NCBI RefSeq assembly: GCF_000422645.1
Contig: NZ_AUGL01000006.1
Span: 62,001 to 126,000, forward strand
Length of the DNA stretch: 64,000 bases
DNA from: Ferrimonas futtsuensis DSM 18154
GTDB lineage: Bacteria; Pseudomonadota; Gammaproteobacteria; Enterobacterales; Shewanellaceae
Direction: 5' to 3'
How positions within the stretch are numbered: position 1 is the first letter of the stretch; every line of letters starts with the position of its first letter. Shown piece by piece: positions 48,435-64,000 of the stretch. The position numbers and the translations under genes are program-made. The notes below the pieces were generated by a model. It saw only the letters and a program-made list of their open reading frames with translations. It did no database searches and had not been told where the DNA came from.

Positions 48435-49802
48435 ATGTCTGAGATTCACGGAAGGTGGTCCAATCGATTTACCTACATACTGGCTGCCACCGGCGCCGCG
48501 GTCGGACTGGGTAACATCTGGAAGTTTCCCTACATCATGGGAGAGAACGGCGGTGGCGCGTTCGTTCTTGTCTACCTGGTGTGCATCGCCCTCATTGGTG
48601 TCCCGGTTATGATGGCCGAGGTGATGATCGGCAAGTACGGCCGACTGGCCCCCTCCAAGTCGGTGATCAAGCTGGCCAAGGATTCCGGTCGGTCGAGCGC
48701 CTGGCGTGTGACCGGCTGGGGCGGGGTGATCGCCGGCTTCCTGATCCTCTCCTTCTATGTGGTGATCGCCGGTTGGGCGGTGGCCTACACCTGGTACGGC
48801 TTTACCGGCAGTTTCACCGGCCGTAGTGCCGATGAGATTGGTCAGTTGTTTACCAATCTCAACGCCAGCCCCTATCCGCTGCTCGGCTGGAGCGGGGTGA
48901 TCGTCCTGGGCACCATCCTGGTGGTGGGCAAGGGGGTTCAGAAGGGGCTGGAGAGAGCGGTCAACTACATGATGCCCATTCTGTTCGTTCTGTTGACCAT
49001 CATGGTGCTCTACGCCGCCAATACCGGTGAGTTTGCCGAGGCGGTGCGCTTCATGTTTGAGCCGGACTTCTCCAAACTTAGCTGGAACGGCGTGCTGATT
49101 GCCCTGGGCCACAGCTTCTTTACCCTGTCTCTGGCCTCGGGGATCATGATCATGTACGGCGCCTATCTGCCGGAGGGCACCTCCCTGGTCAAGACCTCGG
49201 TCTACATCGCTCTGATGGACACGTTGGTGGCGTTGATGGCCGGCCTGGCCATCTTCCCCGTGGTCTTCGCCAACGGGTTGCCCGCCGGGGCGGGACCGGG
49301 CCTCATCTTCCAGAGCCTGCCCATCGCCTTCGGCCAGATGCCACTGGGGGCGCTGTTCGGCGGCAGCTTCTTCCTGATGGTGGTGGTCGCGGCCTTTACC
49401 TCCTCCATCGCCCTGATTGAGTCCAGTGTGGCCTGGCTTGTAGAGCATCGGGGTTTGATGCGCTGGCAGGCGGCGTCCCTGGCCGGGCTTGCCATCTGGC
49501 TGATGAGCCTGCTGACGGTGTTCTCCCTCACCGGCGCCGAGTGGAGCGTGGTGTCGCTGTGGGGCGACATCAGAATGAGTTACTTTGATCTGCTGGATTA
49601 CATTACCGCCAACATCATGTTGCCGCTGGGAGGCCTGATCATCTCTGTATTCAGTGCCTGGGCAGTAAAGGAGGAGATCAGCCGTAAGATGCTGGACACC
49701 GAGCCCGCGCTCTATCTTCTGTGGCAGAGCTGCCTGAGATACATCGCGCCGGTGGCCATCGTCCTGGTGTTCCTCAACCTGATTGGGGTGCTCAACCTGT
49801 AG
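48435..49802 (+). CDS. Sodium-dependent transporter, NSS/SNF family
   Basis: The ATG at 48435 (MSEIHGRWSNRFTYI) follows a GGAGGGAG; the frame further upstream is not homologous. The 455 residues form about eleven membrane helices. TM1 has the unwound NSS signature AAVGLGNIWKFPYIMGENGGGAFVLVYL, which binds sodium and substrate; TM6 has LGHSFFTLSLASGIMIMYGAY. Bacterial members such as LeuT and MhsT move amino acids. The residues seen do not tell which one. It is a single-gene unit between two terminators. Confidence 0.93.
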   Translation: MSEIHGRWSNRFTYILAATGAAVGLGNIWKFPYIMGENGGGAFVLVYLVCIALIGVPVMMAEVMIGKYGRLAPSKSVIKLAKDSGRSSAWRVTGWGGVIAGFLILSFYVVIAGWAVAYTWYGFTGSFTGRSADEIGQLFTNLNASPYPLLGWSGVIVLGTILVVGKGVQKGLERAVNYMMPILFVLLTIMVLYAANTGEFAEAVRFMFEPDFSKLSWNGVLIALGHSFFTLSLASGIMIMYGAYLPEGTSLVKTSVYIALMDTLVALMAGLAIFPVVFANGLPAGAGPGLIFQSLPIAFGQMPLGALFGGSFFLMVVVAAFTSSIALIESSVAWLVEHRGLMRWQAASLAGLAIWLMSLLTVFSLTGAEWSVVSLWGDIRMSYFDLLDYITANIMLPLGGLIISVFSAWAVKEEISRKMLDTEPALYLLWQSCLRYIAPVAIVLVFLNLIGVLNL

Positions 49803-49836
49803 TCGCAGCCGCTTATCGCTGTGCAATTCTAAAGCA

Positions 49837-49872
49837 AACGCGCCGCCTCAATCTGGGGCGGCGCGTTTTATT
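49837..49872 (+). terminator. Rho-independent terminator of the transporter gene
   Basis: AACGCGCCGCC / GGCGGCGCGTT with a loop of about 8 nt, then TTTATTG. Confidence 0.85.
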
Positions 49873-49962
49873 GTTATAATGGCCCACGATTCATTTTTCC
49901 GGGCGATCACCGACACGGATTCGGTGGCGACCTCCGTCCGGCCAGCTCCCAGGAGAACAACC

Positions 49963-52542
49963 ATGTCGCAGCCGACAGCCCGCCACCGACTGGATTATCA
50001 GGCCAGTCCGTTTCAGATTGACACCCTTCACCTGACAGTGCAGCTGGAGGACCATGCCACCTTGGTGACCGCCGAGAGTGCCATCCGGCGCACCCAGGCG
50101 GGTGCGGCCGAGCTGGCGCTGGTGGGCGAGGAGCTGGCGCTGGTCTCCGTTTCCATCGATGAGGTTGCCTTGTCGGCAGACGAGTATCGCCTGGAAGAGG
50201 GCAAGCTGGTGCTGCCCATGGACAGGGATAGCGCGCGTCTGACCCTGGTTACCCGCATCGACCCGGCCAACAATACCGCCCTGGAAGGGTTGTATAAGTC
50301 CGAAGGCACTTTCTGTACCCAATGTGAAGCGGAAGGGTTCAGGCGCATCACCTATTTCCTGGACCGACCGGATGTGCTGGCGCGGTACACCACCCGAATC
50401 GAAGCGGATAAGGCGGCCTATCCCTACCTGTTGGCCAACGGCAACAAGGTGGACAGCGGCGATCTGGACGGCGGACGCCACTTTGCCACCTGGGTGGACC
50501 CTTTCCCCAAGCCCAGTTACCTGTTTGCCCTGGTGGCCGGTGACTTCGATCTGCTGGAGGACAGTTTTACCACCGCCAGTGGCCGCGACGTGGCCTTGCA
50601 GCTGTTTGTCGACAAGGGCCAGAAAGGGCGGGGGCACCACGCCCTGGCCAGCCTGAAACGGGCGATGAAGTGGGACGAGGAGAGGTTTAACCTGGAGTAC
50701 GACCTCGACATCTACATGGTGGTGGCGGTGGACTTCTTTAACATGGGGGCCATGGAGAACAAGGGCCTGAACGTGTTCAACTCCAAGTGTGTGCTGGCCG
50801 ACAGTGACAGCGCCACCGATGCCGAGTTTGACCGCATCGAGTCGATCATCGGCCATGAGTATTTCCACAACTGGACCGGCAACCGCATTACCTGCCGCGA
50901 CTGGTTCCAGCTGAGCCTGAAAGAGGGACTGACCGTATTCCGTGATCAGGAGTTTTCCTCGGATCTCGGCAGCCGGGCGGTGCACCGCATCGAAGCGGTT
51001 AAGGTGATCCGTGGCATTCAATTTGCTGAAGACGCAGGCCCAATGGCCCATCCGATCAGGCCCGACAAGGTGATCGAGATGAACAACTTCTACACGGTAA
51101 CCGTGTATGACAAGGGCGCCGAGATCATCCGCATGATGCACACTCTGTTGGGTGAGCAGGGGTTTCAGAAAGGGATGGCCCTCTATGTTGAGAGGCACGA
51201 CGGTCAGGCGGTCACCTGCGACGACTTTGTTCAGGCGATGGAAGAGGCCAGTGGCGTGGATCTGACCCTGTTCCGTCGTTGGTACAGCCAGTCCGGGACC
51301 CCGGTCCTGACCGTGGAGGAGGAGTTCGATGCCGAGGCGGCTCAGTACAAGTTGCATCTGCGCCAACACACCCCGGCCACGGCCGATCAGGCCCAGAAAC
51401 AGCCTCTGCACCTGCCGGTGAGACTGGAGCTGCTGAGCACCTCAGGCCAGGCCCTCGAATTGACTCTCGATGGTCAGCCCTTCGACGGCCTCTACAGCCT
51501 GACCGAACCACAGGCAACCCTGACCTTTGATGGGGTGAACGCCAAGCCTGTGGCCTCCTTGCTGCAGGAGTTCTCTGCGCCGGTGAAGCTCAGCTTTGCC
51601 CAGAGTGAGGCCGAGCAGATTCATCTGATGAGTTACGCCAATAACGCGGTGGCCCGTTGGGATGCCGCACAGGGGATCCTGGCCAACGCGGTATTCGTCA
51701 CCCTGGAGGGCGACACGCCGGACAGCGATGCCCTGGCACGCGCCTTTGGCCAGATCCTGGCCGATGACCGCCTGGACGCCGCTCTGGTGGCCCAGATGTT
51801 GACGCTGCCTTCGGTCTCCACCCTGATGGAGATGCACAGCGGCTGCGACGTGGTGGCGCTGCACCAGGCCCGTCGTCAATTGCAGACGACTCTGGGCAGT
51901 GCCCTGGCAGCTGAGATGGAACTGGCGTATCAGCGCTGCGTGGCGGCGAACGACGCCCCTCACCGTGCGTTGAAGAACCTGTTGCTGGAGTTTAAGGCTC
52001 TGTGCGGGGAGTCCGAGCGGGTGCTGGCCCAATATGAGCAGGCCAGCAACATGACTGAAACCCTGGGGGCGCTGCGTGCAGCCAACCAGGGACTGTTGCC
52101 ACAACGTCGGCAGATGATGACCGACTTTGAGGTCAAATGGCGCCACGATCCCTTGGTGATGGACAAATACTTCAGCCAGCTGGCCACCACCCCCATGGAG
52201 GTGGTGCCGCTGCTCGAGGAGATCAATCGGGCGATGTCACACGCCGCGTTCGACATCGGCAACCCCAACCGGGTCCGTGCCCTTGTGGGTGCCTTTGCCG
52301 ATGGTAACCCCAAGGCGTTCCACGATGCCTCCGGCGCCGGGTATCGCTTCCTGACCGAGCAGTTAATCAAATTGAACGGCATCAACCCTCAGTGCGCCGC
52401 GCGCATCATCACGCCTCTGATTGGCTTTAAGCAGCACACGGGGGAGCGTCAGCAGCAGATGCGTCAGTGCCTGGAGCAGCTGATGGCATTGGAGGATCTC
52501 TCTAAGGATCTGTATGAAAAGGTCAGCAAGAGTCTGAGTTAA
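49963..52542 (+). CDS. pepN: Aminopeptidase N
   Basis: PepN is the main cytoplasmic aminopeptidase (M1 family, zinc). The ATG at 49963 (MSQPTARHRLDYQASPF) has AGGAG seven nt upstream and gives 859 residues, close to the E. coli 870. GAMEN at 262-266 recognises the free N-terminus; HEYFHNW at 298-304 with the later Glu in LKEGLTVFRDQEF forms the zinc site. The C-terminal DUF3458 and helical domains are complete. A DUF2835 gene follows after 36 nt. Confidence 0.98.
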   Translation: MSQPTARHRLDYQASPFQIDTLHLTVQLEDHATLVTAESAIRRTQAGAAELALVGEELALVSVSIDEVALSADEYRLEEGKLVLPMDRDSARLTLVTRIDPANNTALEGLYKSEGTFCTQCEAEGFRRITYFLDRPDVLARYTTRIEADKAAYPYLLANGNKVDSGDLDGGRHFATWVDPFPKPSYLFALVAGDFDLLEDSFTTASGRDVALQLFVDKGQKGRGHHALASLKRAMKWDEERFNLEYDLDIYMVVAVDFFNMGAMENKGLNVFNSKCVLADSDSATDAEFDRIESIIGHEYFHNWTGNRITCRDWFQLSLKEGLTVFRDQEFSSDLGSRAVHRIEAVKVIRGIQFAEDAGPMAHPIRPDKVIEMNNFYTVTVYDKGAEIIRMMHTLLGEQGFQKGMALYVERHDGQAVTCDDFVQAMEEASGVDLTLFRRWYSQSGTPVLTVEEEFDAEAAQYKLHLRQHTPATADQAQKQPLHLPVRLELLSTSGQALELTLDGQPFDGLYSLTEPQATLTFDGVNAKPVASLLQEFSAPVKLSFAQSEAEQIHLMSYANNAVARWDAAQGILANAVFVTLEGDTPDSDALARAFGQILADDRLDAALVAQMLTLPSVSTLMEMHSGCDVVALHQARRQLQTTLGSALAAEMELAYQRCVAANDAPHRALKNLLLEFKALCGESERVLAQYEQASNMTETLGALRAANQGLLPQRRQMMTDFEVKWRHDPLVMDKYFSQLATTPMEVVPLLEEINRAMSHAAFDIGNPNRVRALVGAFADGNPKAFHDASGAGYRFLTEQLIKLNGINPQCAARIITPLIGFKQHTGERQQQMRQCLEQLMALEDLSKDLYEKVSKSLS

Positions 52543-52578
52543 GTCGGGAAGGGCGGCTGGTAACGGCCGCCCACATCT

Positions 52579-52797
52579 ATGCAATACATCTTCGATCTCG
52601 CCATCGGTTGGCAACAGATGCAGCGCTACTACCAGGGGCAGGCCCAGGTGGTGGTGGTGCGGTGTTTGCGGGGCAGGGTGATCCATCTGCACCCCAGATA
52701 TCTGCGCCCCTTCCTCTCCGCCCGAGGCATCCATGGGCGCTTTCAACTGACCCTCGACAGCCAGGGCCAATTCCTGAATTTGCAACGATTTGAATAA
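52579..52797 (+). CDS. DUF2835 family small protein
   Basis: The 72-residue product has the pattern of the DUF2835 family: FDLAIGWQQMQRYYQG, then VVVVRCLRGRVIHLHPRYLRPFL and GIHGRFQLTLD. It is soluble, probably a small beta-rich fold. No function is known for the family to my knowledge. It is likely co-transcribed with pepN; DUF2835 genes often follow pepN in these bacteria, as far as I recall. Confidence 0.8.
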   Translation: MQYIFDLAIGWQQMQRYYQGQAQVVVVRCLRGRVIHLHPRYLRPFLSARGIHGRFQLTLDSQGQFLNLQRFE

Positions 52798-53099
52798 CAA
52801 CCCATTAATAGAGCAATAACTTCAAACGGGTGTTGTAATTCTAACTTGCCGACCTTTTCCTGATAAAGCCCGATGAATTCAATGGTTTACGCAGTTGCTG
52901 AAACTGAATGTGTGACATGAATCAAATTTACCCCTGTGAATTCGGGCAAAACTTTACTTAACCTCCTAAAAATTCAGCGGATTCTCTCTCCTAAAAAGGT
53001 TGCTCCCTTACCGTCGTTGTTGTAACAATGGGGTTAATGTGTCGTTACACTGACGGCGCACAACAAAACTATAAATTCAGGGAAGGGAGAACCGCGACA
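52798..53099. other. Regulatory gap before the envelope operon
   Basis: No gene is seen. The gap is AT-rich compared with its flanks. It holds a possible CRP site at 52911-52926 and a weak TTGCTC-17-TAACAA promoter at 53000-53028. A GGGAGA before 53100 is the ribosome site of the DUF1302 gene. Confidence 0.5.
52911..52926. promoter_or_regulatory. Possible CRP binding site
   Basis: TGTGACATGAATCAAA fits TGTGA-N6-TCACA fully in the left half and in three of five bases on the right. It lies about 190 nt before the start at 53100. This is a motif reading only. Confidence 0.3.
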
Positions 53100-55175
53100 A
53101 TGAGACAAGGCGCTAAGGTTTTTCGCCGCTCCGCGCTGGCAGCCAGCATCTGTACGGTGTTAGCCGCTCCGGCCTCAGCAGTTACCTTTAATTGGGGAGA
53201 GATAGAGGGGAGTTTTGACTCCACCTGGACAGTCGGTGCGGCCTGGCGGGTCGAAGACCGCGATTATGGCAAAGTGGCCAAATCCAGTCAGCCCGGTCTG
53301 GACTGGACTGGCTATGGATTTGATTTCGCTGGTGGTGGCTTCAATGAGGTCTACGCTGGCGATCAGCTGTTTGCCCTGCCAGGGTCCTATTCCGCCAACC
53401 AGGATCTGGGCAACCTGCTCTATGATCAGGGCGACACCTTTACCGAGGTGTTTAAAGGCCTGCACGAGCTGGAACTGGTGTACGACAACATGGGTGTGTT
53501 CATCCGTGGCATGTACTTCTATGACAAGCGACTCGAAGACTCGGACTTCGATTACCGCAACCCGGTTTCCGGTGCCAAGTACGACGTGTGTGAAGATTCC
53601 AAGGCGGCAGAGTACGCCTGTTCCGACATCCGTCTGCTGGATGCCTACTTCTTCGCCGACTGGGATCTGGGTGACATGCCCCTCTCCATTCGAATCGGTG
53701 AACAGGTGGTCAGCTGGGGCGAGAGCACCCTGATCGCCCACGGCATCAACTCCATCAACCCCGTTGACCTTGCCCGCCTGCAGGCACCGGGAGCCGAACT
53801 CAAAGAAGCCTTCATTCCCGTGGGCATGGTATGGGCCTCCCTGGGCCTGACCGAAAACCTCAACGTAGAGGCGTTCTACCAATACCGCTGGGAGCAGACC
53901 CGTCTGCCGGTAACCGGCACCTACTTCTCCAGCAATGACTTTGCAGGAGCGGGTGGTTACGTAAACAACGCCCAACTGGGTTTCACCTCCAACCCGGACA
54001 ATACCCTGGACTGGGTACTCGAGCAGTACGCGCAGCTCAGCGCAGTCGCCGCGCAGAGCCTGGAAGCCGGTGGCCCAGCCGCTCTGGCCGGCCTGGGCAC
54101 TGCCGCCATCGCCTACCCAACCAAGGTGACCCTGATCAACTATGAGCAGGAGCCCGATGACCAGGGGCAATACGGTATCAAGCTCGGGTACTTCGCCCCG
54201 GAGCTGAATGACACCGAATTTGGCTTCTACTACATGAACTACCACAGCCGTCGTCCGCTGATCAGTGGCCAAACCGCCAACTTCGGCGCCGAGGCCGTTG
54301 GGGCGGATCTGGCCACATTGGCGGGTCTGGACGGCGAGGTGTCTCGTAATGATCTTCTGCAGCTTAACTCCTTCTCCAAGGCAACCCTGGAGTACCCGGA
54401 AGACATCAAGCTGTACGGCATCTCCTTCAACACTACGGTCGGTGACACATCGGTAGCCGGTGAAATTGCCTACCGTCAGGATGAGCCGCTGCAGATCGAT
54501 GACGTTGAGCTGTTGTTCGCAGCCATGCCGGAGCAGTTGTACAACGCAGACCCCGAAGCTTTCGCCATCTTCGAAAACCTGTCTCAGTACGTGAAGCCGG
54601 ATGGCACCAAGGTAGGACCCGGCGAATACGCGCCAGGCTATGTGCTGACCGACAGCACTCAGGCGCAGATGACCCTGACACACATCTTCGGCCCGACCAT
54701 GGGCGCCGACAACTTCCTGATGCTGGCCGAAGTGGGTGGTGTCTGGTTGCACGACATGCCTGACTCTGCGGTATTGCGGATGAACGGTCCGGGGACGGAG
54801 CGTGCCGGCGCGGAAGGTCGCGAAGATAACCTGGCGGTGCTGGATATTCTGCACAACGGCCCGGAAGAGGATGCCTTCCCCACAGACAATGCCTGGGGCT
54901 ATCGTCTGGTGGCCAAGTGGGATTACTCCAATGTGGCCTTCGGTTGGAACCTGTCACCCCGAGTGGTGTTCTCTCACGACGTGAGCGGTACCACGCCGGA
55001 CCCACTGTTCCTGTTTGTCGAAGATCGTAAGTCCGCCTCGGTGACCTTCGCCTTCGACTATCAGAGCCGTTGGTCCGCTGACCTGGCCTACAACGCTTTC
55101 TGGGATGGAAAGGGTTCTACCAACTCTATGGACGACAAAGATTTTGTCTCCTTTAACCTGAAGTTCTCAATCTAA
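53100..55175 (+). CDS. DUF1302 family outer-membrane protein
   Basis: The ATG at 53100 (MRQGAKVFRRSALAAS) follows GGGAGA; ATG 53028 is in frame but lacks a site. The 691 residues begin with a signal peptide (to about residue 27, APASA) and then show alternating polar/hydrophobic strands throughout, e.g. GSFDSTWTVGAAWRV and LSIRIGEQVVSWGEST, ending with a strand DFVSFNLKFSI with a terminal hydrophobic residue before Ile, as in outer-membrane beta-barrels. It belongs to the DUF1302 family, which occurs with DUF1329, YCF48-like and MMPL genes in many gammaproteobacteria. The cargo is unknown; a hydrophobic compound is likely given its RND partner. Confidence 0.85.
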   Translation: MRQGAKVFRRSALAASICTVLAAPASAVTFNWGEIEGSFDSTWTVGAAWRVEDRDYGKVAKSSQPGLDWTGYGFDFAGGGFNEVYAGDQLFALPGSYSANQDLGNLLYDQGDTFTEVFKGLHELELVYDNMGVFIRGMYFYDKRLEDSDFDYRNPVSGAKYDVCEDSKAAEYACSDIRLLDAYFFADWDLGDMPLSIRIGEQVVSWGESTLIAHGINSINPVDLARLQAPGAELKEAFIPVGMVWASLGLTENLNVEAFYQYRWEQTRLPVTGTYFSSNDFAGAGGYVNNAQLGFTSNPDNTLDWVLEQYAQLSAVAAQSLEAGGPAALAGLGTAAIAYPTKVTLINYEQEPDDQGQYGIKLGYFAPELNDTEFGFYYMNYHSRRPLISGQTANFGAEAVGADLATLAGLDGEVSRNDLLQLNSFSKATLEYPEDIKLYGISFNTTVGDTSVAGEIAYRQDEPLQIDDVELLFAAMPEQLYNADPEAFAIFENLSQYVKPDGTKVGPGEYAPGYVLTDSTQAQMTLTHIFGPTMGADNFLMLAEVGGVWLHDMPDSAVLRMNGPGTERAGAEGREDNLAVLDILHNGPEEDAFPTDNAWGYRLVAKWDYSNVAFGWNLSPRVVFSHDVSGTTPDPLFLFVEDRKSASVTFAFDYQSRWSADLAYNAFWDGKGSTNSMDDKDFVSFNLKFSI

Positions 55176-55190
55176 GAGGGGAGAGGAGTA

Positions 55191-56555
55191 ATGCAAGTAA
55201 AACCACTATTCGCGGCCATGCTGGCCCTGAGCTGCAGCTTTGGCGCCATGGCTAAGGTGACCCCGGAACAGGCTAAGGCCCTGGGTGACACTCTGACGCC
55301 TGTGGGCGCCGAGAAGGCCGGCAACGCAGACGGTTCCATTCCAGCCTGGACGGGCGGGATCACCGAAGCGCCTGCCGGATACAAGCCCGGCGACTTTCAC
55401 GCCGATCCCTATGCCGGCGATCAGGCGCTCTATACCATTACCGCCCAAAACATGGGCCAATATGGCGAGCTTCTGACCCCCGGGGTGAAGAAGATGTTCG
55501 AGATGTACCCGGACACCTTCAAGATGACCGTCTATCCGACCCATCGAAGCGCGTCCTATCCGCAGTTTATCTATGATGCCTCCATCGCCAACGCCAGCAC
55601 CGCCGAACTGGTGGCCGGGGGCAACGGCTTGAAGAACGCCGCCATTGGTGTGCCGTTCCCGATGCCGCAAAATGGCCTGGAAGCGATCTGGAACCACATC
55701 CTGCGCTATCGTGGTGCCGATGCCCAGATCCTCCGGGGTCAGGCTGCGCCCACCGCCGGCGGCAGCTACACCCTGGTGAAGACCGATGAGAAGATCAAGT
55801 TCCTCTACTCCCGCCCGGATGCCAACGCCGAACAGCTGCAGAAAGACAACCTGCTGTTCTACTTCAAGCAGGTGGTGACCTCTCCGGCCCGTCTGGCGGG
55901 GACCGCTCTGCTGGTTCACGAGACCATGGATCAGGAGAAGGAGCCTCGTAAGGCCTGGACCTACAACACGGGTCAGCGCCGGGTACGTCGTGCGCCCAAT
56001 GTGGCGTTCGATACCCCTGGCACCGCGTCCGACGGCATGCGAACTACCGATGACTTCGACATGTACAACGGCTCCCCCTCCCGTTACAACTGGGAACTCA
56101 AGGGCAAGAAGGAGATCCTCATCCCCTACAACAACTACAAGTTGCACGGGGCCGATGTGAAGTATAAGGACATCCTTAAGCCTGGCCACATCAACATGGA
56201 CCTGGTTCGCTGGGAGAAGCACAGGGTGTGGGAGGTGGAAGCGACCCTCAAAGACGGCATCAGCCACCTGTACAAGACCCGTACCTTCTACCTGGACGAG
56301 GACAGCTGGCAGGTGAGCCTGGTGGACCTGTATGACAAGCGTGACCAGCTCTATCGCGTCGGCATGGCCCATGCGGTGAACTACTACGACCTGCCCACTC
56401 TGTGGACCACCCTGGAGGTGTTCTACGATCTGAGCTCCCGCCGCTACCTGGCCATGGGCCTGGATAATGAAGATGGCGTGGCCAGCTTCGAGGAGGAGTT
56501 CAGCGTTCAGAAGGAGTTCACCACTAACGCTCTGCGTCGCAGCGGTCGGCGCTAA
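55191..56555 (+). CDS. DUF1329 family exported protein
   Basis: The 454-residue protein has a signal peptide (to about residue 21, SFGAMA-KVTPEQAKALG) and the DUF1329 layout: an N-terminal segment GGITEAPAGYKPGD, a middle part rich in beta-strands, and the core RKAWTYNTGQRRVRRAPNVAFDTP followed by DDFDMYNG and KKEILIPYNNYKLH. The core has the order of strands of LolA/LolB-like lipid carriers, a relation suggested for this family; it is inferred, not shown here. The gene follows DUF1302 after 15 nt and is likely its periplasmic partner. Confidence 0.85.
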   Translation: MQVKPLFAAMLALSCSFGAMAKVTPEQAKALGDTLTPVGAEKAGNADGSIPAWTGGITEAPAGYKPGDFHADPYAGDQALYTITAQNMGQYGELLTPGVKKMFEMYPDTFKMTVYPTHRSASYPQFIYDASIANASTAELVAGGNGLKNAAIGVPFPMPQNGLEAIWNHILRYRGADAQILRGQAAPTAGGSYTLVKTDEKIKFLYSRPDANAEQLQKDNLLFYFKQVVTSPARLAGTALLVHETMDQEKEPRKAWTYNTGQRRVRRAPNVAFDTPGTASDGMRTTDDFDMYNGSPSRYNWELKGKKEILIPYNNYKLHGADVKYKDILKPGHINMDLVRWEKHRVWEVEATLKDGISHLYKTRTFYLDEDSWQVSLVDLYDKRDQLYRVGMAHAVNYYDLPTLWTTLEVFYDLSSRRYLAMGLDNEDGVASFEEEFSVQKEFTTNALRRSGRR

Positions 56556-56573
56556 ATCTTAAAACTACAATAA

Positions 56574-56593
56574 GGGGGCAGGTAACTGCCCCC
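56574..56593 (+). other. Intercistronic hairpin with GNRA loop
   Basis: GGGGGCAG / CTGCCCCC is a perfect eight-pair stem with a GTAA (GNRA) loop, between the DUF1329 stop and the YCF48-like start, only 3 nt before that start. It leaves little room for a ribosome site, so it may lower translation of the third gene or protect the mRNA of the first two. Confidence 0.65.
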
Positions 56594-56596
56594 GGT

Positions 56597-57631
56597 ATGG
56601 ATACCACTATGCGGTTAATGATGTTGATTCCGCTTGCCCTGATGGGTGGTCACGCCATGGCGGAGCCACCGGCTCCCACCCCCCTGGCGGCGATCCAAGC
56701 CCCCAAAGCCCAAACCAGTCCAATGATGAGCCTTTCCCCGGCGGGAGACGCTCTGGTGGCCGTAGGCAGTCGGGGACAGGCGCTGGTCAAGACAAGCGGA
56801 AATGAGGAATGGCAACAGGCCGAAGTGCCGGTGAGTACGCTGTTGACTCGAGTGTTTATGCTCAATGATCAGCAGGGGTGGGCGGTTGGCCACGATGCCG
56901 CAATACTTCACACCACCGACGGTGGCCAAAGCTGGAGCCTGCAACAGTGGCGCCCGGATCTGGAAGTGCCTCTGCTGGACATCCATTTCCAGAATGAAAG
57001 GCAAGGGGTGGCCGTGGGCGCCTACGGCCAGTTGTTCCGAACCCGGGATGGGGGAAAATCCTGGCAGTTTGAGTTCCTTGACAGCCTGCTGATTGAGGAC
57101 GACCGCCTCTACCTGGAGGAGATACGCGCCGACAGTGAAGAGGATTACCTGGCGGAGCGCGCGGCCATGCTGCCACACATCAATCGGATCCTGCCTCTGC
57201 CCGGGGGCGATCTGTTCGCCGTTGGGGAGATGGGGTTGATGGCACGTTCCAGTGATTATGGCCGTACCTGGCAACGACTTCCTGAGATCTATTTTGGCTC
57301 CCTGTCTGATATGGCCATGGGCGCAGATGGACGCTGGGTGGTCGTGGGGTTGCGCGGCAATGTGTTTGAGAGTCGCGATCAGGGAGAGAACTGGACCCCC
57401 GTGGAGATGGGGACCCAGGGCACGTTTAACAGCATCCGGCGGCTGTCCGATGGCACCCTGGTGATGGTGGCCAATGGCGGCGACCTTGCCTATCGCAGAC
57501 CTGGAGACGCGGACTTTACCCTAGTCCGCGTGGCCAAGGGGCAGGACCTGGTTGATCTCGTGGAAAACGGCGAGGGCAACCTGTGGTTGGCCGGCAGTCA
57601 CGGCGTTCAACCATTCACCATTAAGAAGTAA
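56597..57631 (+). CDS. YCF48-like beta-propeller, exported
   Basis: The 344 residues carry a signal peptide (MLIPLALMGGHAMA) and repeated BNR/Asp-box-like units: GWAVGHDAAILHTTDGGQSW, GVAVGAYGQLFRTRDGGKSW, LMARSSDYGRTW and NVFESRDQGENW. These build a propeller of the YCF48 (photosystem II assembly factor) type, which in bacteria is found outside photosynthesis next to RND transporters. The start could be 56597 or the Met at 56609; the hairpin just upstream argues for 56609. It is followed by the RND gene after 9 nt. Confidence 0.8.
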   Translation: MDTTMRLMMLIPLALMGGHAMAEPPAPTPLAAIQAPKAQTSPMMSLSPAGDALVAVGSRGQALVKTSGNEEWQQAEVPVSTLLTRVFMLNDQQGWAVGHDAAILHTTDGGQSWSLQQWRPDLEVPLLDIHFQNERQGVAVGAYGQLFRTRDGGKSWQFEFLDSLLIEDDRLYLEEIRADSEEDYLAERAAMLPHINRILPLPGGDLFAVGEMGLMARSSDYGRTWQRLPEIYFGSLSDMAMGADGRWVVVGLRGNVFESRDQGENWTPVEMGTQGTFNSIRRLSDGTLVMVANGGDLAYRRPGDADFTLVRVAKGQDLVDLVENGEGNLWLAGSHGVQPFTIKK

Positions 57632-57640
57632 GGAGCTGTT

Positions 57641-60004
57641 ATGACCACAAGGATGGTGAACTGGGTTGAACAGGTGCTGTTCCGCAGCAGAAAGACCGTT
57701 GTTATCCTATTTGCGCTGGCGACTGTCGCCTTGGGCTACAGTGCCGGCCAGCTGAAAATGGACGCGGCGTTCACTAAGAATATCCCCCTTAATCACCCCT
57801 ATATGGAGACCTACCTCAAGCATCGCGAGCAGTTTGGCGGCGCCAACAGCATCATGGTGGCGGTAGAGGACTCCAGCGGCAACATCTTCAACCCCAAGTT
57901 CTTCGAAGTGCTGCGAGAGATTCACGATCAGCTGTTCTTCATCGAAGGGGTGAATCGCAGCCAGGTAAAATCCCTCTATTCGCCGTCGACCCGCTTCACC
58001 GAAGTGGTGGAAGACGGCTTCCAGGGAGGACCGGTGATCCCCGCCGATTTCCGTCCCACCGAGGAGGGGCTGGCCATTGTCCGCGCCAACATCGAGAAGG
58101 CCGGGGCGGTAGGCCGGTTGGTGGCGGATGACTTCAGTGCGGCCATGGTCAGCGCCCAGCTGATGGACAGGATCTCCCTGAATGAAGAGGAGCGGGCGCA
58201 AGCCCAGGCTCAGGATCGTACCGAGATGACCAAGCCGCTGGATGTGCTTGCCCTGGCCGACACCCTGGAACGGGAGCTTCGGGAAAAGTACCAGGATGAG
58301 TCCATCAAGGTACACATCATCGGATTTGCCAAGATGGCCGGAGACGTGGCCGAAGGGGCCGCCGGAGTGGTGGGTTTCTTTGCTGTGGCTCTGGTGATCA
58401 CCGCCTTGATGGTGTACTACTTCTGTCACTGCCCCAAGCTGACGATACTGCCGCTTCTGTGTTCTCTGGTGGCTGTGGTGTGGCAGCTCGGCGGCCTGAC
58501 CGTGCTGGGCTTCGGCCTGGATCCCATGTCCATTCTAGTGCCCTTTTTGGTATTCGCCATCGGCGTCAGTCACGGGGTGCAGATGATCAACGCCGTCGGT
58601 CATAAGGTGGCCGAAGGCCAGAGCGCCAAGGGTGCGGCTCAGCTGGCGTTTCGCAGCCTGCTGGTGCCCGGCGGTGTGGCTCTGCTGTCGGACACCATAG
58701 GTTTTTTGACCCTGCTCTCCATCGACATCGGCATCATCCGTGAGCTGGCCATTACCGCGTCCCTTGGGGTGGCGGTAATCATCCTAACCAACCTGGTGCT
58801 GCTGCCCATCCTGCTCTCCTATGTGAATTTCGGTGAACGCTATCTGGACCGGGTGAGGGCAGAGCATGCCAAGGTGTCGCCGGTATGGAAGGCGATCTCG
58901 GTGTTTGCCTCCAAACCCTGGGCCCTGGTGATCGTCGTGATTGCCGCCATCGCCTACCTGGCGGGGTATGAAAAGTCCCAGGAGATGAAGATAGGTGACC
59001 TGCACGCCGGTGCGCCGGCACTGAAGTCAGACAGCCGATATAACCTGGACACGGCGTTCATTACCGATAACTTCACCATCACCACCGACGTGTTGACGGT
59101 GATTGTCGAAGGGTTCCCCGAGGCCTGCACCTACCACCATGTACTGGAGCGCATCGAACGTTTCCAGTGGCAGATGGAAAATGTCCCGGGGGTGGAGTCG
59201 GCGGCCAGCCTGGCCTCGGTGGCCAAGGTGGTCAATGGTGGCTTCAATGAGGGCAACCCAAGATGGCGGGTGTTGCCGCGCACCACCGCCACCCTGGTGC
59301 AGTCGGTGGGCCGGGTCCCCACCTCCACCGGGCTGCTCAATAACGACTGTTCAGTGATGCCGGTGTATCTGTTCCTCAAGGACCACAAGGCGGTCACCAT
59401 CAACACCGTGGTGGCCGAGGTCAAGAAACTGCAGGGGGAGTACGACACCGATGAGCTGAAGTTCCGGCTGGCCTCGGGTCCTGTCGGGGTGATGGCGGCC
59501 ACCAATGAAGCGGTGGAAGAGGCACAGGGCCCAATGATGCTCTACGTTTACAGCGCGGTATTCCTGCTGTGTCTGATTAGCTTCCGCTCCATTCGTGCCA
59601 CCATCTCGGTGATAGTGCCTCTGTATCTGGTGTCCACTCTGGCCCAGGCATTGATGAGTGCACTGGAGATCGGCCTGACGGTGAGCACCCTGCCGGTAAT
59701 CGCCCTGGGTGTGGGCATCGGTGTGGATTACGGCATCTATATCCTGTCGAGCATGTCCTCGATGTTGCGGGGAGGCCACTCGGTTCAGGAGGCCTATCTC
59801 AAGGCGTTGTGCGATCGGGGCAATGCCGTGGTCTTTACCGGCATCACTCTGGCAGTAGGGGTGAGTACCTGGGTGTTCTCCGCCCTGAAGTTTCAGATGG
59901 ATATGGGGATAATGTTGACGTTTATGTTCCTAGTGAACATGTTAGCCGCGATTATTCTCCTACCGGCAATGGTTAAGTTGTTGTGGTTTAATCGAAAAGC
60001 CTGA
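57641..60004 (+). CDS. RND superfamily (MMPL-type) transporter
   Basis: The 787 residues have the twelve-helix RND plan: TM1 near 18-35, a large periplasmic loop (about 40-225), five helices with FLVFAIGVSHGVQMINA, TM7, a second loop (about 430-610), and five more helices with GVGIGVDYGIYILSSM, whose Asp sits where MMPL and HpnN proteins carry a proton-relay residue. It lacks the long loops of drug-efflux RND pumps, so it belongs to the MMPL/patched-like branch that exports lipids and other hydrophobic molecules. AAGGAG stands before the ATG. It closes the operon; a terminator follows. Confidence 0.88.
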   Translation: MTTRMVNWVEQVLFRSRKTVVILFALATVALGYSAGQLKMDAAFTKNIPLNHPYMETYLKHREQFGGANSIMVAVEDSSGNIFNPKFFEVLREIHDQLFFIEGVNRSQVKSLYSPSTRFTEVVEDGFQGGPVIPADFRPTEEGLAIVRANIEKAGAVGRLVADDFSAAMVSAQLMDRISLNEEERAQAQAQDRTEMTKPLDVLALADTLERELREKYQDESIKVHIIGFAKMAGDVAEGAAGVVGFFAVALVITALMVYYFCHCPKLTILPLLCSLVAVVWQLGGLTVLGFGLDPMSILVPFLVFAIGVSHGVQMINAVGHKVAEGQSAKGAAQLAFRSLLVPGGVALLSDTIGFLTLLSIDIGIIRELAITASLGVAVIILTNLVLLPILLSYVNFGERYLDRVRAEHAKVSPVWKAISVFASKPWALVIVVIAAIAYLAGYEKSQEMKIGDLHAGAPALKSDSRYNLDTAFITDNFTITTDVLTVIVEGFPEACTYHHVLERIERFQWQMENVPGVESAASLASVAKVVNGGFNEGNPRWRVLPRTTATLVQSVGRVPTSTGLLNNDCSVMPVYLFLKDHKAVTINTVVAEVKKLQGEYDTDELKFRLASGPVGVMAATNEAVEEAQGPMMLYVYSAVFLLCLISFRSIRATISVIVPLYLVSTLAQALMSALEIGLTVSTLPVIALGVGIGVDYGIYILSSMSSMLRGGHSVQEAYLKALCDRGNAVVFTGITLAVGVSTWVFSALKFQMDMGIMLTFMFLVNMLAAIILLPAMVKLLWFNRKA

Positions 60005-60027: not shown

Positions 60028-60054
60028 AAAAAGGCCGCATATGCGGCCTTTTTT
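60028..60054 (+). terminator. Rho-independent terminator of the envelope operon
   Basis: AAAAAGGCCGC / GCGGCCTTTTTT with a four-nt loop, 24 nt after the stop. Confidence 0.92.
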
Positions 60055-60257: not shown

Positions 60258-63200
60258 ATGGCTAATAACGACACTATCCCTTCCGTCCTACTCGAAAACG
60301 TTGTGGGTCTCATCCACAGCAACCTCCCCAAGCAGGATGCCATCCTGCTCGAACGATTTGCCCACGCACTGTATGGAACCCTGTCCCGGGACGATCTCTA
60401 CGCCCGCAGCGACAGCGATCTTTACGGTGCTATTCTCAGCCTGTGGAACAGCCTGAATCAGGTTTCAGGCGGCAAGGCCTTCAGTCGGGTATTTAACCCA
60501 CTGCAGAGCACTCATGGTTGGCAGTCCAACCATACGGTGATTGAGATGATTCAACCGGATATGCCGTTTTTGGTGGATTCGGTCTCCATGGCGTTCAACC
60601 GCCTGGGGGTGACCTCTCACCTGATGATCCATGTGCCCCTGGCGATTCAGAGAGATAAAAAGGGCAGGGTGGTCGAACTGCGCTCCCTGGCTGAAGCCAA
60701 GGCCAACGATGAACGCATCGCCGTCTTTCTGATGGAGGTGGACAGCCTTTCCACTGAAGATGAGGTCAACACCGTCCATCAAGAGCTGAACTCAGTGGTC
60801 ACCGACGTCGCGGCGTCGGTGAATGACTGGGATGCCATGCGTGCTCAACTGGGCGCCACCGTCAGGGAGATGGAGGAGAACGATGAGCAGGGTCAACACG
60901 GTGAAGCCACCGAGTTCCTCAAGTTCCTGCTCAATCACCACTTTACTCTGTTGGGGTTCCGTCGTTACGACCTGATTCCCGTTTCCGGAGACGTTGAACT
61001 CTCTCCCCAGATGGAAACCGGCCTGGGCATGATGCGGAGCAAGGGCGACACCAGCCGTCATCTGCTGCTCTCCACTCTGCCCGAATCTGCCCGAAAGGAA
61101 GCCCTGGGACCTGCGCCGCTGGTGCTGACCAAGACCAACTCCAAGAGCCGGGTGCACCGTCCTGCCTACATCGACTACATCGGTGTTAAGCGTTTCGACA
61201 AAGAGGGCCGGGTGGTGGGCGAAGACCGGTTCATCGGTCTGTACGCCAGCTCAGTGTATAACCGCAGCCCCCGTGAGATCCCTCTGCTCTCCGGCAAGCT
61301 CAACCGGGTGATGGAGCGTTCGCGGCTGGCGCCACGCTCCCACGACTTCAAGGCGCTGCTTAACGTGCTGGAGACCTATCCCCGGGATGAACTGATCCAG
61401 GCGACCGAACAGGAGCTGCTGGAGATCGGTCTGGGCGTTTTGCAGATGCAGGACAGGGACAAGGTGCGTCTGTTCCTGCGCAAGGATCTGTTTGGCCGCT
61501 TTATCTCTGCCATGGTGTATGTCTCCAAAGACAGGTACAACACCCAGCTGCGGGTGAACACTCAGAAGTTGCTGGCGGAGTACTTCAATGCCGAGGAGGA
61601 GGTGGAGTTCACGACCTTCTTCTCCGAGTCGATACTGGCTCGAACTCACTACTTGGTAAAAGTTGAAGATAACGATATGGATATTGATGTTCCTGCGCTG
61701 GAGAACAACCTGGTGGAACTGACCCGCTCCTGGGAAGACAAGGTAGACAGCGCTCTGCGTAAGACCTTCGGTCAGGCCAAGGGCAAGGCCATCGCCAACA
61801 ACTACCTTCCCGGTTTCCCTCGCAGCTACAAAGAGGATGTGTTGCCCTCGGCCGCAGTGGTGGATGTGGCCAAGCTGGAGAAGCTGAACGACTCCGATCA
61901 ACTGGGCATGCTGTTCTATCAGCCTCAGGAAGCGGTACTGGACGCCAACCAGGTACGCCTGAAGCTGTTCCACAAGGATGAACCCATCCACCTGTCCGAC
62001 GTCCTGCCCATGCTGGAGAACTTCGGTCTGCGGGTGATTGGCGAGCGACCCTACTGCATCAATACCGCCGACGGACAGGTTTACTGGGTGCTCGACTTCA
62101 ACATGACCCTGTCGGGCAAGACAGAAGTGGACATCAATGCGGCTCAGGCACGTTTCCAGGAAGCGTTCGCCAAGGTGTGGGCCAGGGATCTTGAGGATGA
62201 TGGCTTCAACCGGCTGATCCTCTCTGCGGGCATGACCGGTCGCGAGGCCAGTGTGCTGCGCTCCTACGCCAAATATATGCGTCAGATCGACGGCACTTTC
62301 TCGCAGACCTACGTCGAGGAGACGCTGGCCGAGTACCCTCACATCGCCTCTCTGCTGGTGAAGATGTTCGATCGCAAGTTCAACCCAGGCTCCAAAGCCA
62401 AGCGGGATCTGGAAAAGCAGATCGACCAGGCCAACACCTATCTGGATGACGTGTCCAATCTGGATGACGATCGCATTATCCGTCGTTACATCGCCCTGAT
62501 TCAGGCGACCTTGCGGACCAACTTCTATCAGCACGATGACCAGGGCCAACCCAAGAGCTACGTCTCCTACAAGTTCTCCCCGGCGGAGATCCCGGAGATG
62601 CCGCTGCCGCTGCCCAAGTTTGAGATCTTTGTCTACTCTCCCCGGGTCGAGGGTGTCCACCTGCGCGGTGCCAAGGTGGCCCGGGGCGGCCTGCGCTGGT
62701 CCGATCGCCGCGAAGACTTCCGTACCGAGGTGCTTGGTCTGGTCAAGGCCCAGCAGGTGAAGAACACCGTGATTGTGCCTTCCGGCGCCAAAGGCGGCTT
62801 CGTGTGCAAGAACCTGCCCACCGACCGCGACGGCATGCTGGCGGAAGGTCAGGCCTGCTATAAGATTTTCATCAGTGCTTTGCTGGACATTACCGACAAC
62901 ATTGTGGCCGGCCAACTGACGCCGCCGGATCGGGTGATTCGCCACGATGAGGATGACCCCTACCTGGTGGTGGCGGCGGATAAGGGCACAGCGACCTTCT
63001 CCGACATCGCCAATGCCATCTCTGAAAGCTACGACTTCTGGCTGGGCGATGCCTTCGCCTCCGGTGGTCAGTATGGTTATGACCATAAGAAGATGGGCAT
63101 CACCGCCCGCGGCGCCTGGGAGTCGGTCAAACGCCACTTCCGCGAGCTGGGTGTCAACTGCCAGACCACAGATTTCACCGTGTTGGGCGTGGGTGACATG

Positions 63201-64000
63201 GGGGGCGATGTATTTGGTAACGGCATGCTGCTCTCCAGGCACATTCGTCTGCAGGCCGCCTTCAACCACATGCACATCTTCATCGACCCCAACCCGGATT
63301 CAGCCAGCTCCTACGCCGAGCGTGAGCGTCTGTTCAAGCTTCCCCGTTCCACCTGGGAGGACTACAACGGCGAGCTGATCTCCGAAGGGGGCGGTGTTTT
63401 CAACCGCAGCGCCAAGTCGATCAAGCTGACGCCTCAGATTAAGGCGATGATCGGCACCAACAAGAACCAGATGGCCCCCAATGAACTGATTCGGCAGCTG
63501 CTGATGATGGAGGTCGATCTGTTGTGGAACGGTGGCATCGGTACCTACGTCAAGGCCGTGACCGAGACCGACGTCGATGTGGGGGACCGTGCCAACGACG
63601 TGCTGCGGGTCAATGGCAGTGAACTGCGCGCCAAGGTGGTGGGCGAGGGTGGCAACCTGGGTCTGACTCAGCTGGGCCGCATCGAGTACGCCAAGCGTGG
63701 CGGTCGCATCAACACCGACTTCATCGACAATGTTGGAGGCGTGGACTGTTCCGATAACGAAGTGAACATCAAGATTCTGCTGAATCAGCTGGTGGCCCAA
63801 GGCGATCTCACCATCAAGCAGCGCAACCAGCTGCTGGAGAAGATGACCGATGAGGTGGCCGAGATTGTATTGCAGGATTGTCGCGACCAGGCTCAGTCCA
63901 TCTCCGTCACCGAGGTGCTCAACTCGGATCAGCTCAAGGAACAGATCCGCTTTATGCAGCACCTGGAGAAGGCGGGCAAGCTGGACCGTGCCCTGGAGTT
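60258..64000 (+). CDS. NAD-dependent glutamate dehydrogenase, large type, 3' end cut
   Basis: The frame opens at ATG 60258 (MANNDTIPSVLLENVVG) and has no stop before the window end, so 1247 residues are seen of about 1600 usual for the GDH-180 class. Members convert glutamate to 2-oxoglutarate, mainly for glutamate or arginine catabolism, as large homo-oligomers in the cytoplasm. The long N-terminal regulatory region has ACT-like parts (MPFLVDSVSMAFNRLGV). The catalytic domain begins near RGGLRWSDRREDFRTEVLGL, and AKGGF with the catalytic Lys at about residue 845 follows. The NAD-binding domain starts with TVLGVGDMGGDVFGNGML. About 350 residues at the C-terminus lie beyond the window. A possible promoter (CTCACA-18-TACACT, 60139-60168) is weak. 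Confidence 0.95.
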   Translation, partial: MANNDTIPSVLLENVVGLIHSNLPKQDAILLERFAHALYGTLSRDDLYARSDSDLYGAILSLWNSLNQVSGGKAFSRVFNPLQSTHGWQSNHTVIEMIQPDMPFLVDSVSMAFNRLGVTSHLMIHVPLAIQRDKKGRVVELRSLAEAKANDERIAVFLMEVDSLSTEDEVNTVHQELNSVVTDVAASVNDWDAMRAQLGATVREMEENDEQGQHGEATEFLKFLLNHHFTLLGFRRYDLIPVSGDVELSPQMETGLGMMRSKGDTSRHLLLSTLPESARKEALGPAPLVLTKTNSKSRVHRPAYIDYIGVKRFDKEGRVVGEDRFIGLYASSVYNRSPREIPLLSGKLNRVMERSRLAPRSHDFKALLNVLETYPRDELIQATEQELLEIGLGVLQMQDRDKVRLFLRKDLFGRFISAMVYVSKDRYNTQLRVNTQKLLAEYFNAEEEVEFTTFFSESILARTHYLVKVEDNDMDIDVPALENNLVELTRSWEDKVDSALRKTFGQAKGKAIANNYLPGFPRSYKEDVLPSAAVVDVAKLEKLNDSDQLGMLFYQPQEAVLDANQVRLKLFHKDEPIHLSDVLPMLENFGLRVIGERPYCINTADGQVYWVLDFNMTLSGKTEVDINAAQARFQEAFAKVWARDLEDDGFNRLILSAGMTGREASVLRSYAKYMRQIDGTFSQTYVEETLAEYPHIASLLVKMFDRKFNPGSKAKRDLEKQIDQANTYLDDVSNLDDDRIIRRYIALIQATLRTNFYQHDDQGQPKSYVSYKFSPAEIPEMPLPLPKFEIFVYSPRVEGVHLRGAKVARGGLRWSDRREDFRTEVLGLVKAQQVKNTVIVPSGAKGGFVCKNLPTDRDGMLAEGQACYKIFISALLDITDNIVAGQLTPPDRVIRHDEDDPYLVVAADKGTATFSDIANAISESYDFWLGDAFASGGQYGYDHKKMGITARGAWESVKRHFRELGVNCQTTDFTVLGVGDMGGDVFGNGMLLSRHIRLQAAFNHMHIFIDPNPDSASSYAERERLFKLPRSTWEDYNGELISEGGGVFNRSAKSIKLTPQIKAMIGTNKNQMAPNELIRQLLMMEVDLLWNGGIGTYVKAVTETDVDVGDRANDVLRVNGSELRAKVVGEGGNLGLTQLGRIEYAKRGGRINTDFIDNVGGVDCSDNEVNIKILLNQLVAQGDLTIKQRNQLLEKMTDEVAEIVLQDCRDQAQSISVTEVLNSDQLKEQIRFMQHLEKAGKLDRALE

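Follow-up and report, generated by a model that had tools for sequence, protein, structure and literature searches.

Four consecutive genes in a 64,000-nucleotide stretch of the Ferrimonas futtsuensis DSM 18154 genome (contig NZ_AUGL01000006.1, positions 62,001 to 126,000; hereafter the window) raise the question of whether they act as one machine and, if so, what it moves and in which direction. They encode an outer-membrane beta-barrel of the DUF1302 family (A), a periplasmic DUF1329 protein (B), an exported YCF48/BNR-like beta-propeller (C) and an inner-membrane transporter of the resistance-nodulation-division (RND) type (D) (Table 1). The initial annotation, made from the sequence alone, had described four co-directional genes of these families in this order, separated by 15, 41 and 9 nt. 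The list of open reading frames (ORFs), their coordinates and the Pfam searches, in which each of the four proteins scored above the cut-off of its family, confirmed this description. Below we argue that the four genes are a single complete system and consider, with a probability of about 0.65, that it is the core chromosomal lineage of an AmeABCD-type four-part envelope transporter that exports lipophilic molecules.

Linkage was counted for 151 DUF1329 copies in 135 sequences, namely the window, 54 loci from a profile scan and 80 stretches picked from other genomes, with the four-gene order defined as A-B-C-D on one strand with gaps of at most 600 nt. Exactly this order was found for 94 of the 151 copies, a lower bound because contig ends cut some stretches, so the arrangement is not due to chance. 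Sorted by DUF1329 profile score, it was present in 70 of the 72 copies scoring at least 650 (termed core), in 6 of 21 scoring 560-650 and in 18 of 58 scoring below 560. Of the remaining copies, 30 were lone B genes, 16 belonged to AB pairs and 11 to partial sets or sets in another order. Presence regardless of linkage, the stronger test, was scored in 295 genomes of the order, using E-value thresholds of 1e-30 for B, 1e-20 for A, 1e-100 for D and 1e-15 for C. B was detected in 111 genomes, A and D in 110 each and C in 109; all four were present in 107 genomes, three in 4 and none in 184, and none of the four occurred outside the 111 genomes with B. G221 lacks A, and G187 lacks D at this threshold but has a weaker one; C is missing from G294 and G310, whose assemblies are 88 and 60% complete. 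Since these genomes are related, the counts are not independent events; by genus they amount to 34-35 of 99.

The set is gained, lost and rearranged in a way that points in the same direction. In the window's own family, B is found in 21 of 22 genomes. The exception, G436, is a 100% complete assembly from genus g178, the rest of which clusters with Shewanella in the pump tree described below; in this genome, pepN, DUF2835 and gdhB, the genes flanking the window set, are consecutive, with a gap of about 400 nt between DUF2835 and gdhB (locus L229), and all four genes are absent. In genus g179, AB and CD are not adjacent in any of 11 genomes, and both pairs are kept: in six genomes they lie on the same contig more than 100 kb apart, in five on different contigs, and C is directly 5' of D in all three genomes examined. 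Elsewhere the two pairs are divergent (L156) or about 4 kb apart (L169). Presence and absence as a block, together with the retention of both halves when the set is split, argue for one four-part system. The initial annotation had made its idea of a single system spanning both membranes and the periplasm depend on the genes being linked in other genomes; they are, and linkage, co-occurrence, protein families and predicted folds all support the idea.

A system of this kind has been described before, contrary to the initial annotation, which took it for a poorly described one. AmeABCD of Castellaniella defragrans (Puentes-Cala and Harder, 2018, PMC6394551; this and the other papers are cited here from their accessible passages) comprises the same families, in the order DUF1302-DUF1329-COG4447-COG1033 and in one direction. 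Its DUF1329 protein has 451 residues (454 in the window) and its pump 787 (787), whereas the barrel is longer in the window (691 vs 605). The deletion mutant is impaired in growth on non-functionalised apolar monoterpenes and grows normally on acetate and oxygenated terpenoids; acetate restores its growth at limonene concentrations up to 5 mM and fails to do so above that. The window set has the complete four-gene cassette that defines this type. However, AmeABCD is monoterpene-induced and lies in a monoterpene island, whereas the window set is placed between pepN/DUF2835 and gdhB, with no monoterpene genes on its flanks; hence we file it under the AmeABCD system type and not as a monoterpene exporter.

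The second described version is that of Pseudomonas putida, in which the AB and CD modules (PP_0765/PP_0766 and PP_2018/PP_2019) occupy two loci, while in the window a single operon carries both, with a hairpin where the modules meet. All four P. putida genes share one phenotype, being needed for growth on Tween 20; co-folding gave strong C-D contacts and weak B-D and B-A contacts, and the study put forward the idea of a new transport system (PMC10866462). The four genes are also contained in the betaproteobacterial aromatic regulons AphR/AphS/AphT (PMC6449761). Compared by description only, the 'Nanopod' cluster of the benzene-degrading ORM2a likewise encodes porin-like, DUF1329, YCF48-related and MMPL proteins in one expressed cluster, but with two further genes between them and in an anaerobic member of the Desulfobacterota (PMC13101534); the same paper cites impaired growth on phenanthrene after deletion of a DUF1329 gene in Delftia. 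A table for an oil isolate lists DUF1302, DUF1329, RND and 'glycosyl hydrolase' genes next to each other (PMC7145413), and a Zoogloea phenol-hydroxylase cluster contains DUF1302 and DUF1329 genes (PMC7012976). For single DUF1302 members, possible MetJ sites, not kept in relatives, were reported in Kangiella (PMC3228920), and laminin binding in P. aeruginosa (PMC6890786). Among the open-licence papers listed, judged by their titles, abstracts and passages, we recognised none that deals with this set in Shewanella or Ferrimonas.

We then turned to the predicted structures for what the parts might do. In the AlphaFold2 model of B (predicted local distance difference test, pLDDT, 88.7), residues ~158-452 form a LolA-like fold according to Foldseek and VIA-align. 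The alignment with LolA3 of Porphyromonas gingivalis (9tp6) gave a Z-score of 22.6 and a root-mean-square deviation (rmsd) of 2.4 over 237 aligned residues; Z was 20.0 for the DUF1329 protein of Desulfovibrio piger (4z48), 19.9 for 3bk5, and 7.7 to 8.8 for classical LolA proteins of E. coli, P. aeruginosa and Francisella. The LolA/B-like fold that the initial annotation had suspected is thus borne out on the predicted model. B has this fold in common with LolA/LolB and the LolA-like proteins, but it differs from them in carrying about 130 additional mature residues N-terminal to the domain, many of them at invariant positions, and in having an RND pump as its genetic partner. A sequence search of solved structures with the DUF1329 protein returned three matches, two nanobody-type binders and a lectin (best E 0.03), none of them useful. 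The authors of the AmeABCD study noted the LolA superfamily assignment and proposed B and C as membrane-fusion proteins (PMC6394551); in our view, the modelled fold would suit a carrier role of B better.

A LolA/LolB fold could also be taken as a sign of protein sorting or assembly, with DUF1329 acting as a lipoprotein chaperone, the propeller, whose family is named after a photosystem assembly factor, as an assembly factor, and the RND protein as a SecDF-like motor. We consider this very improbable: no LolCDE or Sec gene is found among the immediate neighbours of the window set, the matches of D to SecDF models are marginal, and the normal growth of the AmeABCD mutant on acetate and oxygenated terpenoids speaks against a general envelope defect (PMC6394551). 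By its score against the Ycf48 equivalog model, 98.9 bits with a cut-off of 326, C does not appear to be the Ycf48 photosystem II assembly factor itself.

The model of A (pLDDT 77.2) has about 18 strands by count. Its best matches among solved structures were Occ/OprD-family barrels (Z 23.2, rmsd 3.4, 311 aligned residues), followed by the exporter AlgE (Z 21.6), and one Occ channel among its nearest solved barrels has vanillate bound. Consequently, A is modelled as a barrel of the Occ/OprD/AlgE class, a fold which does not by itself give the direction of transport. The same parts could be read as an importer, the barrel admitting a lipophilic nutrient, DUF1329 carrying it inwards and the RND protein delivering it to the inner membrane. 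The Occ channels near A, the one with vanillate included, would agree with such a role, as would the published phenotypes, which are losses of growth on a lipophilic carbon source. Nevertheless, we find import unlikely. Known RND pumps move their substrates out or towards the outer membrane, and the nearest barrels of A include an exporter as well. Moreover, the rescue of the AmeABCD mutant by acetate only up to 5 mM limonene resembles toxicity (PMC6394551).

The best NCBIfam match of pump D is the HAE3 model TIGR00921. Against the HpnN models TIGR03480 and NF052374 it scored 65.2 and 15.4 bits, with cut-offs of 751.85 and 1100, respectively, and it is not classed as HpnN. None of the four genes matched the families of membrane-fusion proteins or TolC-type outer-membrane factors, B being LolA-like, and the set is not a tripartite HAE1 system of the AcrAB-TolC kind; a search with the first half of the pump gave HAE1-type pumps only among the 7 sequences listed. 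The fourth transmembrane helix (TM4) of D contains the motif GVSHGVQ (His311) and TM10 the motif GVDYGIY (Asp696). Ser-His in TM4 stands where TM10 has Asp-Tyr in all 85 aligned pumps of the family, the Asp-Tyr of TM10 being kept in every one, and all of another 11 pumps, taken from plasmids and split loci, showed the same pattern. In pumps of the MmpL3 and HpnN types, each half carries an Asp. From these alignments we infer that the family keeps the proton-relay Asp in the second half only, that is, a one-sided relay; the accessible passages of the AmeABCD paper do not mention the Ser-His motif (PMC6394551).

The same genome holds a smaller cousin of the four-gene design (locus L195, 3603-8234 of contig C3), in which an MMPL-type RND gene (851 aa) is accompanied by a LolA_like gene (PF17131) and a gene for a 427-aa predicted barrel without a Pfam match. 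It differs from the window set in that there is no propeller among the three, the LolA-like protein is much smaller and the RND protein has, by eye, Asp in both TM4 and TM10 (VVDSIH, SVDFAIH). This second set of RND protein, LolA-like protein and barrel suggests a general design.

To place the window copy within the family, a tree of 85 pumps was built, from which 22 loci, mostly near-duplicates, had been omitted beforehand and which does not contain AmeD and PP_2019. The window pump falls in a clade of 39 rows (SH-aLRT 100), every one of them beside pepN, with members from Ferrimonas, Shewanella, Parashewanella, Alteromonas, Psychrosphaera and further relatives. pepN lies upstream in 33 of the 35 core loci from the profile scan (a contig end truncates each of the remaining two) and in 19 of the 36 core loci of a more widely picked set. 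A second clade (13 rows, support 100) includes pumps from Alteromonas lipolytica, Pseudomonas and Paraburkholderia as well as another copy from the family of the window. When eight plasmid pumps were added, six joined the second clade, together with the split genus, and two (L223 and L226) fell elsewhere. One pepN-linked four-gene set of a distant member of the class (L148) sits in the second clade on a long branch and does not fit a simple split.

The neighbours of non-core copies are often of a different kind. Five non-core loci were picked for viewing: L064 has genes for an XylR-type activator, a catechol-dioxygenase-like protein and an acyl-CoA dehydrogenase; L120 for AMP-binding (acyl-CoA-ligase-type), BKACE, TauD and alcohol dehydrogenase proteins; L079 for an aldehyde dehydrogenase, a GMC oxidoreductase and an enoyl-CoA hydratase; in L069, P450 and short-chain dehydrogenase/reductase (SDR) genes adjoin AB and lone B copies; and L071 has LysR and SDR genes. 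Of 39 plasmid records, eight regions were viewed. By profile, seven have all four families side by side, five of these in the A-B-C-D order (in L222 with B in two frames), and L219 has only C and D. The plasmid neighbours include genes for 4-hydroxybenzoate monooxygenase (L221), protocatechuate dioxygenase (L224), acyl-CoA dehydrogenase (L222), fatty-acid CoA ligase (L225), 4-hydroxy-2-oxovalerate aldolase and long-chain acyl-CoA synthetase (L223), but also for arylsulfatase (L226). Beside the window copy there are no catabolic genes. The window copy thus belongs to a core chromosomal lineage, mostly beside pepN, which is distinct from the plasmid and catabolic-island lineage, a distinction that is new here.

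A stable, non-catabolic lineage might instead serve as an endogenous route by which a native lipid leaves the inner membrane for the outer, similar to the role of HpnN for hopanoids, the catabolic versions having been recruited for foreign lipophiles. The single site of the core clade beside pepN in Ferrimonas, Shewanella, Alteromonas, Psychrosphaera and others, its retention in 21 of 22 genomes of the family, the absence of catabolic neighbours in the window and the distant kinship of D to HpnN-type models are in line with this. However, loss is tolerated, both in a complete genome of the same family and in 184 of the 295 genomes of the order, and no lipid-synthesis gene is found among the immediate neighbours, so we hold such a route to be improbable.

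The module boundary between B and C carries a further feature. We searched the 75 nt after the B stop codon for hairpins whose stem has 7 or more pairs, including 5 or more G-C and no more than 1 G-U, and found them in 57 of the 70 core four-gene loci. The same criterion was satisfied after A in 2 of 70, after C in 0 of 70, inside B in 3 of 70, in 0.9 of 70 for shuffled sequences and in 45 of 69 after D, the expected place of terminators. As the 57 hairpins represent 47 different sequences, it is the structure that is kept and not the sequence. Folding z-scores below -2 were obtained for 66 of 99 copies with C after B, whereas two control windows within B gave 11 and 9 of 99. A T-rich stretch (at least 5 T in 8) follows 3' of the hairpin in 20 of the 57 loci, hence some are terminator-like; the window has none. 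Six of the 13 core loci that failed have a strong hairpin by eye, with extra G-U pairs or one pair short, and the remaining seven, which have no hairpin, all come from other orders of the class; three of four plasmid cassettes examined lack it as well. The hairpin therefore characterises the core lineage within the order, along with some relatives, and not the family as a whole. It marks the same AB|CD boundary at which the set splits in P. putida and in genus g179.

The hairpin may be a partial terminator or a 3' protector keeping the AB message above the CD message. In a table for a benzene-degrading consortium, the first column of numbers, whose heading lies outside the accessible passage, gives 106 for the porin-like and 158 for the DUF1329 protein, vs 65 for YCF48 and 60 for MMPL (PMC13101534); these values from one distant organism would fit AB > CD. 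The initial annotation had placed one terminator at the end of the operon. A terminator indeed follows D, but it is not the only such structure, as the strong B-C hairpin lies inside the operon. The end terminator was not listed by a consensus terminator scan, probably because its T tract forms part of the stem, paired with the opposite arm's A tract.

From these results, we infer the following mechanism. D, driven by protons through the single Asp-Tyr site in its second half, would take a lipophile out of the inner membrane, with C docked on the pump. B, the LolA-like protein, would receive the lipophile and carry it across the periplasm, and A would take it from B and release it at or through the outer membrane. 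The hairpin between B and C would probably keep the barrel and the carrier more abundant than the propeller and the pump. The cargo of the core lineage would perhaps be free fatty acids or other membrane-disturbing lipids. The reading as a lipophile exporter rests on the match to AmeABCD, the P. putida phenotype, the predicted folds of B and A, the all-or-none presence of the four genes, their absence as a block from G436, the catabolic genes that often adjoin members of the other lineage, and the general design suggested by the second set in the same genome. The hydrophobic cargo suggested in the initial annotation is likewise the likeliest reading.

Several observations weigh against the exporter reading. 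Growth defects on a lipophile fit import equally well. In the AmeABCD study, Nile Red accumulation differed slightly, and only with carbonyl cyanide m-chlorophenylhydrazone (CCCP) in limonene-grown cells, while real-time efflux was nearly equal in the wild type and the mutant (PMC6394551), so that these data favour export only weakly. The HAE3 score of D, 154.4 bits, is below the cut-off of 351.9. pepN, DUF2835 and gdhB, the neighbours of the core copies, give no hint of lipids, and two non-core loci also contain genes unrelated to lipophiles, urate oxidase in L071 and methylamine dehydrogenase in L226. A site resembling that of the fatty-acid regulator PsrA, TTCAAACGGGTGTTGTAA, is found upstream of the operon, but its position wanders in relatives, and the pattern (up to 2 mismatches) occurs at 24 places in the genome vs 15 for the reversed control. 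The accessible passages of two regulon papers (PMC3223726, PMC5343134) do not name these four genes.

The regions upstream of A were aligned for 8 Ferrimonas-type and 14 Shewanella/Parashewanella sequences. The ORF list places the start of A at 53028. We preferred 53100 because a purine-rich stretch immediately 5' of it is conserved in the 8 Ferrimonas-type sequences and because 53028 would fall within a conserved promoter-like block. This block, a putative promoter, was not listed by a sigma-70 scan of the window; Shewanella has a comparable block ending in TGTAACAAT or near. In the same region (53000-53040), a conserved block in Ferrimonas contains the palindrome TTGTTGTAACAA, and Shewanella has one of the CTGTAACAATG type. 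A CRP-like site with 2 mismatches, TGTGACATGAATCAAA, lies at ~52911-52926, 219 nt upstream of the start of A in the alignment; of the 36 upstream regions scanned, 8 have such a site at nearly this place (within a few bases), and conservation of a TCAAA/TCAAAT half extends further. The true start of pepN probably lies inside the ORF given in Table 1. The closest DUF1329 relative with a species name, among the matches listed, is that of Ferrimonas sediminicola (93% identical).

Table 1. Features of the four-gene locus and its surroundings in the window (positions of the window; bit scores are from Pfam-type models).
Feature	Coordinates	Strand	Length	Evidence and remarks
pepN (M1 aminopeptidase)	49783..52542	+		Pfam; conserved upstream neighbour, outside the system
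DUF2835 small protein	52576..52797	+		Pfam; neighbour outside the system
Putative promoter, TTGCTC (53000-53005) - 17 nt - TAACAA (53023-53028)	53000..53028	+		Upstream alignments
A, DUF1302 outer-membrane beta-barrel	53100..55175	+	691 aa	PF06980, 566.9 bits; signal peptide by eye
B, DUF1329 periplasmic LolA-like protein	55191..56555	+	454 aa	PF07044, 518.9 bits; signal peptide by eye
Intercistronic hairpin, GGGGGCAG-GTAA-CTGCCCCC	56574..56593	+		Between DUF1329 and propeller genes (modules AB and CD)
C, YCF48/BNR-like exported beta-propeller	56597..57631	+	344 aa	PSII_BNR, 96.1 bits; signal peptide by eye
D, MMPL/HAE3-type RND inner-membrane transporter	57641..60004	+	787 aa	Pfam MMPL, 76.4 bits
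Rho-independent terminator of the operon	60028..60053	+		Perfect 13+13 nt inverted repeat, T tract at end
gdhB (NAD-glutamate dehydrogenase)	60258..64000	+		Pfam Bac_GDH_CD; truncated by the window end; outside the system

The window set is a real, complete single system of an already described kind, in its core lineage. In the literature that we found, as far as its passages were accessible, work on the four-part set has been confined to specialists that degrade terpenes, aromatics and detergents. Its regular occurrence in Ferrimonas and in Shewanella, where strain ANA-3 carries the core set at locus L041, offers tractable genera for testing the cargo, the direction and the hand-over to the carrier, and the one-sided proton relay and the hairpin that splits the modules are concrete handles for mutation. 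A bolder view, which we regard as doubtful, is that in many marine gammaproteobacteria the core lineage could form a so far unrecognised native route for lipids between the two membranes, in which an RND pump with a one-sided relay would load an endogenous lipid on the LolA-like carrier for the Occ/AlgE-like barrel, the hairpin would set the unequal dosage of the two modules, and the plasmid and catabolic versions would be recruitments for foreign lipophiles. Should the cargo of the core version indeed be a native lipid, the few known inter-membrane lipid transport systems would gain another member, one of the same class of importance as Lol, Lpt and Mla.

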